A stretch of 64,000 nucleotides of DNA. Source: an uncultured Lachnospiraceae bacterium (GTDB taxonomy: Bacteria > Bacillota > Clostridia > Lachnospirales > Lachnospiraceae). The notes below the pieces were generated by a model, which saw nothing but the letters and a program-made list of their open reading frames with translations, was not told the DNA's origin and ran no database searches. A program made the translations under genes and the position numbers. This document shows, one piece after another, positions 56,525-60,958 of the stretch (the first letter of the stretch is position 1; each line of letters starts with the position of its first letter). The stretch covers positions 1 through 64,000 of the forward strand of contig CANSPM010000005.1 in assembly GCA_947648875.1 (NCBI GenBank), read 5' to 3'.

Positions 56525-57133
56525 CTATTGTTCCGCCTCTTTTCCTTTTCTCAAAATAAATTTTTCCCCCACATAGGTGCGCACCGGGTTTCCTCTTACA
56601 ATGCGGCTATGCTCCCGCCAGGCAGCGTTTATCTGTTCCTCCTGCTGCTCCCGTTGTAACTTGGCCAGCTTCTTCCGCAATATCTCCATAGCTTTTTGCC
56701 TGTTTTGATATTGACTTCTCTCCTGGGTGGATTGGGCCGTAAGAGCGGTGGGAACATGAATGATCCGCACCCCGCTCTCCACCTTGTTCACGTTCTGCCC
56801 GCCTTTCCCGCCACAGTGAAACTTCTCAATACGATACTCCTCTTCTGCCCCGATCTCCGCCTGATCCGGAAGAACGCTCACATCCACATACCAGTTCTTT
56901 CTCTTGTGATTTTTTCGAAACGGACTTGGACAGATCCATAATACCGTTCCCTCCAGGTTGCTCAGATCCTGTTTTGTCCGAAAACGAATAGAATCAAAAC
57001 AATTCTTTTCAGCCCCTCTGGTCTCCGACAGAATCTCCAGGTCTCCGTACTCTTCCTGCAATGCCTCATACAGCTTTGCCACCGCCAGCTGACATTCGGA
57101 AGGTCCCTGCCCGGAACTGATCTGAATAATCAT
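56525..57133 (-). CDS. prfH: Peptide chain release factor H-like protein
   Basis: FHCGGKGGQNVNKVESGVRIIHVPTALTAQSTQERSQYQNRQKA; short, single-domain RF with GGQ; adjacent to rtcB. Confidence 0.9.
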   Translation of the reverse strand: MIIQISSGQGPSECQLAVAKLYEALQEEYGDLEILSETRGAEKNCFDSIRFRTKQDLSNLEGTVLWICPSPFRKNHKRKNWYVDVSVLPDQAEIGAEEEYRIEKFHCGGKGGQNVNKVESGVRIIHVPTALTAQSTQERSQYQNRQKAMEILRKKLAKLQREQQEEQINAAWREHSRIVRGNPVRTYVGEKFILRKGKEAEQ

Positions 57134-57167
57134 ATATTTCCTCCACATTCACATTTAAATATGCCTG

Positions 57168-58277
57168 TTACAACTTGCTTCCCGCCTTAAAATTATATAC
57201 CGGCCTTAAAATATCCGTAATGGCAACCGTATCCCCGATCCGCTCCGCAATGTCCGCAAGAGAGCGGTAAGCAAAAGGGGCTTCATCCAATGTCTCCACT
57301 CCCACGCAACTGCTGTAGATACCTTTCATCTCTTTCTTGAAAGACGACACTGTATATTGTCTCTTTACGTCCTCCCGTTTAAGCCTCCTGCCGGAGCCGT
57401 GGGGAGCGCTGCAATTCCAATCCGGATTGCCCTTTCCGGTCCCCATAATAATTCCCTCTTTCATATTGACGGGAATGAGCACCCTCTCACCGCTCCCGGC
57501 AGAAATGGATCCCTTGTGCAGGATGCCAGCGTCATCCAGATAATTGTGCGCCACCGAAAACTGCTCCGCGACTTTCCATTTCATACCCTTAACGATCTCC
57601 CGCACTATAATATGCCTGTTCCACTCGGCATACTGCTGGATCAGCCGTACATCCTCCACGTAGGCCTTTCTGTCTTCTCCCTCCAGATAACTCATATAGT
57701 AGGGGACTTCCCTGCCCTGTTCCTTCAGGCGGCTGTTTGCCAGTTTCGTATAGTATTCCGCCACTTCCTCTCCAAGATGCCTGCTGCCTGTATGCACCAC
57801 AAGATACATACCGCCATCCTTGTCTCTGTCCAATTCTATAAAATGGTTGCCGCCTCCCAATGTGCCCAGGCTTCTCTGTGCCCTTTCCCTGGAGATATGC
57901 CTGATACAGTGAAGCTCCTCACAGGAAAACTCCTCCGCCAGCCAGTGAGCCCTGTCGCGTATGGCAAAACCCGACGGCACGTTCTCCCGTATGACTCTGT
58001 CCAGCTTCTGAAACTCCGCATTCCCCCTGTTCAACTTCACACAGGTCATCCCGCAGCCGATATCTACCCCCAAAAGCTGGGGAATCACCCTGTCGGTCAC
58101 CGTCATTGTAAGTCCGATGGGCCCCACCTTACCGGGATGAATATCCGGCATCACACAGATTCTGCTCCCCCGGGCCACCTCGTTGTCACATATCATCTTA
58201 ACCTGCGCCTCCGCGTAGGGCTCCACATCCTCTGTGAATATCTTCGCCTCGGCATATATCCCTTTTACTGTTTTCAT
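57168..58277 (-). CDS. rtcB: RtcB-family RNA ligase
   Basis: GVDIGCGMTCVKL, LGTLGGGNHFIEL, VVHTGSRHLGEEVA, VAHNYLD, SAPHGSGRRLKR. Confidence 0.93.
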   Translation of the reverse strand: MKTVKGIYAEAKIFTEDVEPYAEAQVKMICDNEVARGSRICVMPDIHPGKVGPIGLTMTVTDRVIPQLLGVDIGCGMTCVKLNRGNAEFQKLDRVIRENVPSGFAIRDRAHWLAEEFSCEELHCIRHISRERAQRSLGTLGGGNHFIELDRDKDGGMYLVVHTGSRHLGEEVAEYYTKLANSRLKEQGREVPYYMSYLEGEDRKAYVEDVRLIQQYAEWNRHIIVREIVKGMKWKVAEQFSVAHNYLDDAGILHKGSISAGSGERVLIPVNMKEGIIMGTGKGNPDWNCSAPHGSGRRLKREDVKRQYTVSSFKKEMKGIYSSCVGVETLDEAPFAYRSLADIAERIGDTVAITDILRPVYNFKAGSKL

Positions 58278-58299
58278 ATTATTATGTCTCCTCAGATTT

Positions 58300-58401
58300 T
58301 CAAAAAAGGCATAAAAAAAACACCATCAAAGGTGTTGTGAGAGTTGCCATGCCTTTGATTACCGTTCTTGCTGTTCTGTTTTTCAAACTTCCCTTACACA
58401 T
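58300..58401 (-). CDS. Putative 33-aa leader ORF upstream of rtcB
   Basis: MCKGSLKNRTARTVIKGMATLTTPLMVFFLCLF*; GGAGGG 6 nt before the ATG; overlaps the leader terminator. Confidence 0.5.
   Translation of the reverse strand: MCKGSLKNRTARTVIKGMATLTTPLMVFFLCLF
58313..58336 (-). terminator. Short intrinsic terminator/attenuator in the rtcB leader
   Basis: AACACC-TTTGAT-GGTGTT stem-loop followed by T-run on the minus strand. Confidence 0.6.
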
Positions 58402-58448
58402 GGCAATCCCTCCTTTTCGTCAGTATACTCCCTTTTGTCAACGAATAA

Positions 58449-58477
58449 ATCATAACATAAATAAATAAGGTTGGCAA
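58449..58477 (-). promoter_or_regulatory. Putative sigma-A promoter for the rtcB-prfH leader
   Basis: TTGCCA-N17-TATGAT on the minus strand. Confidence 0.65.
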
Positions 58478-58507
58478 GAGGCAGGATAAATATAATTTTA
58501 CATTCTG

Positions 58508-60055
58508 TCAGGGCTTTTCATAGATCGCTTCCAGGCCATACCAGAGCGCCACATGCCCATCAATTCTTCCCGAGTCATTCTCAGGAACCTCCGTAATTTC
58601 TGTCACCCAAAGGGGGTATGCGCGCACAATATAAGGCGGTACATACACGGTCTCAAAGCTCCAGCTATTTTCTCTGTATATGTTCAGCCTTTGAAGATAC
58701 TCATGCCAGTACTGTATCCCTTCCCCCTCCACAGTCATCCGAAAAGCGCCATAGCTGACAAAAGTGGCTTTTCTGGATACTTCGTCCATTTTCAAAAAGC
58801 AGCCGAAGCCCAGCAACAACAAAGCCAGTTGTACTGCCGTCCAGTGAAAAACATTTCTTCCATGAAAGGGAATTATTTTTTCACACACCCGAACTCTGTG
58901 TGTAATCCAACCGCAAAGATAGGTTTCCAGCAACAGAAGCCCAATCATCAAAAACATTTTACAGATATTCTGATTTCTGGATATGGGCCAATAGCCAAGG
59001 GCATAAAAGCCCGGGGCAAACATGGAGGCGTACAGACAATACAGCCCTGCGGCCACCGCCAGCGGACAGCGAAACGAAAAATTTTTCACACGGCTTGTTG
59101 CCTTCAAAAGAACCGGCAACAACAAAATCAATAGAACACATACATATACATCCACCCACGACAGCATCTGAGAAAAAGAATAGGAAAAGCACTCGCCTAT
59201 TGTCCACAGAACCCCTTTTTGCACATAGTTTGCCTGCCGCACCGCATTTCCCGGTGCCAGTATATTGACCAGAAATCCCGTCTCTCCCACCAGAAAAGGA
59301 ATTGTGAACCACAGATTACGCCTGTCCTTGCGCATCCTCCACAAAACAAAGGCAACCATCTCCAGCAAGAACAAAATCTCCGCAGTCAGCAATGCCGTCG
59401 AGAAGTTGGCGCCCGCCGCCATGAAAGCGCCTCCCGCGCATGCGCACAGCGCCGAAATCCATCCCGCCCTTTTACCTTTGCGGCGGTATAATCTCTCAAA
59501 AAACAGCACAGCAAAGCCCACTGTCAGATTAAAAAAACCCTGCATGAACACATAGTGAACCGCCGCGTTATAATAATACATCCCCGATGCAGGGGTATAC
59601 ATAAACACACACTGCATCACTGTAGCCACCATGACAACGGACACGCAGGTATACATATCCAGTCCAAATAAACGACCCGCTATGGCGTACAACAGCACAG
59701 CCGTGGAAATACCGGTCATACCAATCATCATATAGGGAACCACATGGACATACTGTTCCCCGAACGCCATGGGGGAGATGGCAAAGAAAAAAACAGAGCT
59801 GTAAGTCCCCTGCCACTTCATGTAGGTATCCGCCACCGTGGAAAAAGCTGTTTTCAGCACCTCGAACAGATTATGGGTATTCAACCAGGTGCAGTGGACA
59901 TGAAAGGGAAAACGCAGATCATCCCCCAGCCCATGGTTATAGCGCCCAATGTACAGGAGAGGCGCGATGAAGAGCAAACATCCCAGTATTGTAAAACAGC
60001 AGAACGCCTTCCGGGTTAAAAACTCCCGCTCCAGTTTTCCAAGTATTTCTCTCAT
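58508..60055 (-). CDS. Multi-TM membrane protein (DUF6056-like)
   Basis: Many TM segments; GLGDDLRFPFHVH after TM1; start chosen at MREILGKLEREF. Confidence 0.65.
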   Translation of the reverse strand: MREILGKLEREFLTRKAFCCFTILGCLLFIAPLLYIGRYNHGLGDDLRFPFHVHCTWLNTHNLFEVLKTAFSTVADTYMKWQGTYSSVFFFAISPMAFGEQYVHVVPYMMIGMTGISTAVLLYAIAGRLFGLDMYTCVSVVMVATVMQCVFMYTPASGMYYYNAAVHYVFMQGFFNLTVGFAVLFFERLYRRKGKRAGWISALCACAGGAFMAAGANFSTALLTAEILFLLEMVAFVLWRMRKDRRNLWFTIPFLVGETGFLVNILAPGNAVRQANYVQKGVLWTIGECFSYSFSQMLSWVDVYVCVLLILLLPVLLKATSRVKNFSFRCPLAVAAGLYCLYASMFAPGFYALGYWPISRNQNICKMFLMIGLLLLETYLCGWITHRVRVCEKIIPFHGRNVFHWTAVQLALLLLGFGCFLKMDEVSRKATFVSYGAFRMTVEGEGIQYWHEYLQRLNIYRENSWSFETVYVPPYIVRAYPLWVTEITEVPENDSGRIDGHVALWYGLEAIYEKP

Positions 60056-60312
60056 TCCGTATTCTCCTTTTGTTTCGGCAAATTCCAAATCCCACGTGGG
60101 AATCATAAGCGCTATCCGGCCTCCGGACTCCTTTGTCCCAGTCACCCACTGGAGAATGACTCTTACTGAGCCGCCCTTACATGCCATCATGTAACTAGAT
60201 TATATACGGTTTTTGTCCCTTTCGGGTCTGCCGCAGGCAGACATCCCCCCTTTCTCTCTAGATTATTCAGAACTTCTGTTCCGTACCTGCCAATCGGTAT
60301 CCCCTCCTCAAA

Positions 60313-60456: not shown

Positions 60457-60958
60457 TGCTTTGGGGGCTTTCTCCTTTCCGTTCCTTCGGATTCGCCCTA
60501 AGTTGCGCAGTACCTGCTCATCTACGTTTTGCCTTTCCCGCTGTCAGGTATTCCATGAGGCATACATTTGACTACATGGTTACATTGTTCAGCCCTTCGC
60601 CAATACCTATTTCAGGGCTTTGTCTACTACGGCTTCTGCTGACTTCTCACAATTCGTCGTTACTATGGCCAATATCTCCGCCCGTGAGACCTCACGGGAT
60701 AAGCCTGCCAGTCTTTCCTCATCTACCTGCCTGATTTATGCAAATGGGTTACGGTTGCCTTTAGGACTTCGCTGTCTTGTGCCAGCTTATCCACATGTAC
60801 GCCTTATATCAGATTTCTGTTCGTCAAGCTACGATTTCACTATCCCTTCTTCTCGCCTGTACCTCACGATACAAACCTTGGGAGTCGCTCTGGGGTTCGC
60901 CGGCTACTACGCCCCTTGTAGACTTTCACCACAGACTGACGGCATGCCCGTCATACAC
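60313..60958 (-). mobile_element. Group II intron remnant: 5' domains plus start of the RT, 3' part missing
   Basis: Non-coding GTGTATGACGGG... leader of about 500 nt with ATCTGATATAAGGCGTA as in LtrB-type introns, leading into the RT N-terminus. Confidence 0.65.

Follow-up and report, generated by a model that had tools for sequence, protein, structure and literature searches.

A conserved leader, probably a ribosome-mediated transcription attenuator, ahead of an rtcB-prfH RNA-repair operon in an uncultured Lachnospiraceae bacterium

The rtcB-prfH locus and its leader

The window, that is, the whole 64,000-nucleotide stretch of DNA analysed here, carries an RNA ligase gene, rtcB, and a release factor gene, prfH, behind a leader with an upstream open reading frame (uORF), three segments (S1, S2 and S3) that can pair in alternative ways, and an intrinsic terminator. 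Every element that a preliminary description of this DNA had named was found where it had been placed, reading the minus strand. The features are as follows.

56525-57148, minus strand: prfH, release factor H, 207 aa (TIGR03072, 8.4e-53, above cut-off)
57168-58277, minus strand: rtcB, RNA ligase, 369 aa (Pfam PF01139, 1.7e-53)
58300-58401, minus strand: predicted uORF of 33 codons, from ATG at 58401 to TGA at 58300
58311-58336, minus strand: predicted intrinsic terminator, AACACC-TTTGAT-GGTGTT plus T run (from sequence and folding)
58325-58332, minus strand: S3, CCTTTGAT, 3' strand of the antiterminator, overlapping the 5' arm and loop of the terminator (from base pairing)
58338-58359, minus strand: S2, in which ATCAAAGG (58359-58352) pairs with S3 and GCATGGCAACTCTC (58352-58339) with S1 (from base pairing)
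58399-58413, minus strand: S1, Shine-Dalgarno sequence and start codon of the uORF, 5' strand of the anti-antiterminator (from pairing energy and covariation)
58449-58477, minus strand: predicted sigma70-type promoter, TTGCCA-N17-TATGAT (p=0.015 against shuffles)

Since PrfH, which exceeds the TIGR03072 cut-off, adjoins a ligase of the RtcB fold, the two genes were classified as an rtcB-prfH operon. The window RtcB scored 104 bits with TIGR03073, the model of the canonical PrfH-partner ligase, and thus fell short of its cut-off of 271.8. Phage relatives of this RtcB were numerous, with identities of up to about 45% (fecal phages, Bacillus phage Grass and others). Given that the protein lies under the cut-offs for the usual partner and has many phage relatives, it was assigned to a different RtcB subfamily, and a phage ancestry is possible from the sequence comparison. 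PADLOC assigned no defence family to RtcB or PrfH. A DUF6056-like gene (58508-60190) precedes the leader, and group II intron domain matches (RF02001 and RF01998) occur near this gene, at 60592-60873 on the minus strand.

The promoter hexamers of the window leader, TTGCCA (58477-58472) and TATGAT (58454-58449), are separated by a spacer of 17 nt. The uORF has the sequence MCKGSLKNRTARTVIKGMATLTTPLMVFFLCLF and the Shine-Dalgarno sequence AAAAGGAGGG. The preliminary description had proposed two incompatible 8-bp pairings. The first, TTGCCATG (58406-58399) with CATGGCAA (58351-58344), is present and proved to be part of a longer helix, S1:S2, in which GGAGGGATTGCCATG (58413-58399) pairs with GCATGGCAACTCTCA (58352-58338) over 13 bp with an energy of -19.0 kcal/mol. 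The second, S2:S3, formed by ATCAAAGG (58359-58352) and CCTTTGAT (58332-58325), does span only 8 bp in the window. A further repeat, ATGCCTTT (58312-58305) complementary to AAAGGCAT (58356-58349), is also there as described; however, its position is past the point of termination, behind the T run, and it does not belong to the conserved design, so that it was dropped.

On the window sequence alone, the S1:S2 helix reached z = -2.4 against shuffles and the fold of the entire leader z = -2.1. S2:S3 gave -9.6 kcal/mol, where shuffled sequences averaged -5.3, and 13 of 200 shuffles were equally good. Considering that these statistics are modest, the comparison with relatives had to decide.

Conservation and targets of the leader family

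Loci were collected from PrfH and RtcB searches of 397 genomes of the family, from a sample of the class and from one scan of a genome collection, and the upstream regions were read. In the genome-collection scan with PrfH, the loci past the first ten were mostly ordinary release factors. Thirty-two leaders of shared design were found in about 30 related genomes. Twenty-six precede rtcB, with an adjacent prfH in 19 and without one in seven, and PrfH is therefore not obligatory. Another four (L195, L197, L200 and L199) precede a moxR/metallopeptidase (DUF2201_N) pair, moxR-vwa, and the remaining two precede damaged rtcB copies. At L199, the leader, the moxR pair and then rtcB-prfH all form one operon, and at least one rtcB without a leader of its own, L123, sits inside this operon.

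The leader was kept although rtcB was internally deleted (L196, where moxR-vwa follows) or truncated (L198). Pairs of a moxR AAA ATPase and a DUF2201_N metallopeptidase share the leader at L195, L196, L197, L199 and L200, which suggests, as far as gene context can tell, a joint role of this pair with rtcB-prfH in RNA repair.

The uORFs of the 26 rtcB leaders have 24-42 codons and a strong Shine-Dalgarno sequence of the GAAAGGAGG type; across the 31 leaders other than that of the window, the uORF has 21-42 codons and stops ahead of the terminator. S2 lies within the uORF, some 45-65 nt from its start; in the 26 rtcB leaders, the stretch able to pair with S1 begins at roughly 45-60 nt. An intrinsic terminator stands directly ahead of rtcB in the window and in most relatives. 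S1:S2 and the alternative S2:S3 are present in nearly all 32 leaders, S3 being located immediately ahead of the terminator's 5' arm or within it.

The pairings were compared in a MAFFT alignment of 24 non-redundant leaders. In the S1:S2 helix, 77.5% of the cells were paired (45-54% in slid controls), the covariation score was 0.354 against 0.233 in shuffled alignments (reached in 0 of 500), and 9 of 11 pairs had changed on both sides, as in GGACAATC with GGTTGTCC, GGATACCATG with GCGTGGATATCC and GATGATTACTA with GGGTAATCATC. The mean energy of S1:S2 was -15.9 kcal/mol for cognate and -12.0 kcal/mol for non-cognate strands, and that of S2:S3 was -22.5 and -14.9 kcal/mol, respectively; in both cases, none of 50,000 permutations was as good. 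Long S2:S3 helices were frequent, such as TATAGAGAACTGGTTGTCCTG with GGCAGGATAACTGGTATCTCTAT in L133. At six loci that had played no part in model building, S2:S3 outperformed 296 or more of 300 shuffles at every locus and S1:S2 was supported in five, the exception being L199, which has no S1:S2. The frame of the uORF relative to S2 was identical in 19 of the 24 leaders, which points to coding as well as pairing. Judged from these sequences, S1:S2 and S2:S3 are mutually exclusive, co-evolving helices ahead of the terminator, and the antiterminator S2:S3 is incompatible with the terminator stem as well.

The alignment of leaders across relatives, a check proposed in the preliminary description, accordingly found the pairings kept and covarying. 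The 1:2, 2:3 and 3:4 attenuation logic put forward there is borne out in the relatives by the conserved uORF, its constant frame and the co-evolution of S1:S2 and S2:S3. Most leaders have promoter-like sites upstream of the uORF (combined p about 6e-22), which argues against a transcription start downstream of it; TTGACA-N17-TATACT recurs in many leaders, and the hexamers of L121 are identical to those of the window.

A covariance model built from S1-S2 only was run over the 397 family genomes. It gave 25 matches at E<=0.001, all of them preceding rtcB, its remnants or moxR-vwa: 19 were the known rtcB leaders and six were new (L195-L200). A further moxR locus, L227, was matched in a smaller search (E = 1.5e-4). 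On 157 class-wide genomes, matches were confined to family f45 and the window itself. Neither the window leader nor any of 20 related loci reached the gathering score of a family in Rfam release 15, and the commonest S1/S2 sequence, used as an exact pattern, did not occur in the viral contigs scanned. The leader did not behave as a single clustered trait on the RtcB tree, where 8 changes were counted against a shuffled mean of 8.1, and this idea was rejected.

Two other arrangements were seen elsewhere in the class. At L166 and L167, from another family, a hairpin over the rtcB Shine-Dalgarno sequence replaces the terminator, which suggests from sequence a shift from transcription to translation attenuation. 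L161-L165 (families f25, f29 and f55) have a different short-uORF leader with apparent terminators before a more canonical rtcB-prfH, the uORF peptides being MTTIIYYEVFNL, MTVKNINEVRCL, MLVTNYEVNDN and similar; by its sequence, this leader looks like an independent attenuator of rtcB-prfH.

Proposed mechanism and competing explanations

Leaders of comparable architecture have been characterised in other bacteria. The vmlR leader of Bacillus subtilis has a uORF in an anti-antiterminator helix, an antiterminator and an intrinsic terminator, and it has been proven experimentally that stalling of a ribosome on the uORF keeps the anti-antiterminator from forming (PMC9226507). The likeness noted is one of architecture; the vmlR uORF encodes a tripeptide and its target is an ABC-F resistance gene, whereas the uORFs described here have 21-42 codons and the targets are those of RNA repair. 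In Listeria, the hflXr (lmo0762/rli80) leader has a 14-aa ORF encompassing the anti-antiterminator, followed by an antiterminator and a terminator; this attenuator has also been proven experimentally, and its target acts on stalled ribosomes (PMC6310831). It differs in that it carries an RLR macrolide motif and serves ribosome recycling, whereas RLR is absent from the present leader peptides examined, and the role here would be rRNA repair. The toiL uORF of E. coli topAI-yjhQ is likewise a general sensor of ribosome stalling, the start codon included, but works through translation and Rho-dependent termination, without an intrinsic-terminator switch (PMC12121999).

Considering the covariation, the fold model and these analogies, we regard it as probable that a ribosome-mediated transcription attenuator of the vmlR/hflXr kind controls the rtcB-prfH RNA-repair operon. 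In a ribosome-free leader, S1:S2 would pair, S3 would stay free, the terminator would fold and transcription would end. During normal translation, the ribosome would pass S2 and finish just beyond it while S3 is being made, and the terminator would fold again. A ribosome that initiates at the strong Shine-Dalgarno sequence without elongating would cover S1, so that S2:S3 could form, the terminator would be blocked and rtcB-prfH would be transcribed. Likely inducers would be whatever holds ribosomes at the first codons, namely cleavage of ribosomes in the decoding centre, which is the damage that RtcB-PrfH answers, or antibiotics acting there.

Plain equilibrium folding, with the ribosome footprint modelled as masking of the start or of S2, gave a median terminator probability of 0.95 in free RNA, 0.24 with the start masked and 0.99 with S2 masked; for the window leader, the values were 0.99, 0.01 (S1/start masked) and 0.97, respectively. 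When S2 was exchanged for that of another leader, the mean drop in terminator probability fell from 0.32 to 0.08. Only 12 of the 29 leaders showed a drop of more than 0.3, and in several the antiterminator was already favoured in free RNA. The fold model therefore supports the mechanism and is no proof for each leader.

As to the signal, RtcB2-PrfH has been reported to protect E. coli from colicin E3, which cuts 16S rRNA (PMC9223846), and the simplest reading is that non-elongating ribosomes would induce their own repair. By this analogy, a ribosome damaged in its decoding centre and stuck at the uORF start might thus switch on its own rescuers, the ligase and the release factor. We hold this closed loop to be a tentative idea, somewhat short of an even chance.

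It is less likely, though a serious contender, that the same switch answers a start-stalling drug, as in vmlR/cplR, and that the induction of RtcB, PrfH and MoxR-vWA belongs to a drug response and is not due to RNA damage. The architecture is like that of vmlR, and several attenuator uORFs of this type respond to antibiotics that hold the ribosome on the start codon; in addition, E. coli Rtc has been linked with a transient resistance against drugs that target the ribosome (PMC12606134). However, every target found is a gene of RNA repair or associated with it, none being a known resistance gene, and the RLR macrolide stalling motif was absent from the leader peptides examined.

The window copy is itself atypical. 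It is the shortest of the 32 leaders (83 nt from start to T run, against a median of 160) and the only one in which the uORF runs through the terminator, its stop falling 16 nt after the T run begins; in the other leaders, the uORF ends 50-214 nt ahead of that point. In comparison with L040, L120 and L121, the nearest relatives of the window RtcB, it lacks the segment that leads from S2 to the terminator and contains the uORF stop. Because of the short leader and the uORF that reads through the terminator, the exact switch logic of this copy is less certain, and its working logic may differ from that of its relatives; with the uORF ending where it does, a closely trailing ribosome could itself block the terminator. 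We consider it unlikely that the copy is rewired or decaying, with the spacer lost and a coupled ribosome blocking termination, so that the genes would be on whenever translation is brisk, given that S1:S2, S2:S3, the promoter and the terminator are all kept, that rtcB and prfH are open, and that the fold model retains a sharp switch (0.99 to 0.01).

Stalling at particular codons is a still less probable explanation. Ribosomes might pause at Asn or N-L-[IT] codons when the tRNA is cleaved or uncharged, and RtcB would then repair tRNA. Over codons 2-15 of the uORFs of about 30 leaders, Asn made up 19.0%, where the base composition would give 12.4%, and many uORFs share an N-L-[IT] triplet before S2, ahead of its R/K-G codons. 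Nevertheless, the window uORF contains one Asn and no trp-type run of a single amino acid, and the Asn enrichment in the set is only moderate.

A plain intergenic terminator of the upstream DUF6056-like gene, with a spurious small ORF and coincidental pairings, is very improbable: the terminator does lie about 170 nt past the upstream ORF stop and the single-sequence significance is modest, but promoter-like sites stand between that gene and the uORF, the pairings covary, and the design is common to leaders whose upstream genes are unrelated (one near-identical pair excepted), so that the idea of a terminator belonging to the upstream gene or serving it was rejected.

Relation to known RNA-repair systems and significance

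The order of the genes, rtcB then prfH, is that of the known rtcB2-prfH operon (PMC1586002, PMC9223846), from which the present operon differs in its RtcB, a ligase that falls short of the models built for the customary partner of PrfH. We found no leader described for rtcB2-prfH in these two papers. In the open-access literature searched, there was no report of a leader for rtcB-prfH or moxR-vwa, and no description of the inducing signal of rtcB-prfH was found there. Attenuation of this kind is an established form of control; neither the leader family itself nor such control of rtcB-prfH and moxR-vwa was found in that literature. RtcR-controlled rtcBA also has the RNA ligase RtcB as its output and is induced by RNA damage; there, a protein activator answers damaged tRNAs, whereas here a cis-acting RNA is predicted to read ribosomes (PMC7790460). 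The sigma54 promoter that goes with RtcR regulation has a sigma70-type promoter in its place here.

The sharing of one leader by rtcB, prfH and moxR-vwa links the moxR/metallopeptidase pair to the repair of ribosomes or RNA. Start-stall attenuation would in this way extend from antibiotic resistance to the repair of the ribosome itself, and a leader predicted to read stalling would offer a simple reporter for finding natural damaging agents. If the closed loop is true, the leader would act in cis as a sensor dedicated to ribosome damage, would govern an RNA-repair regulon of rtcB, prfH and moxR-vwa, and would take the part of RtcR-type protein sensors.
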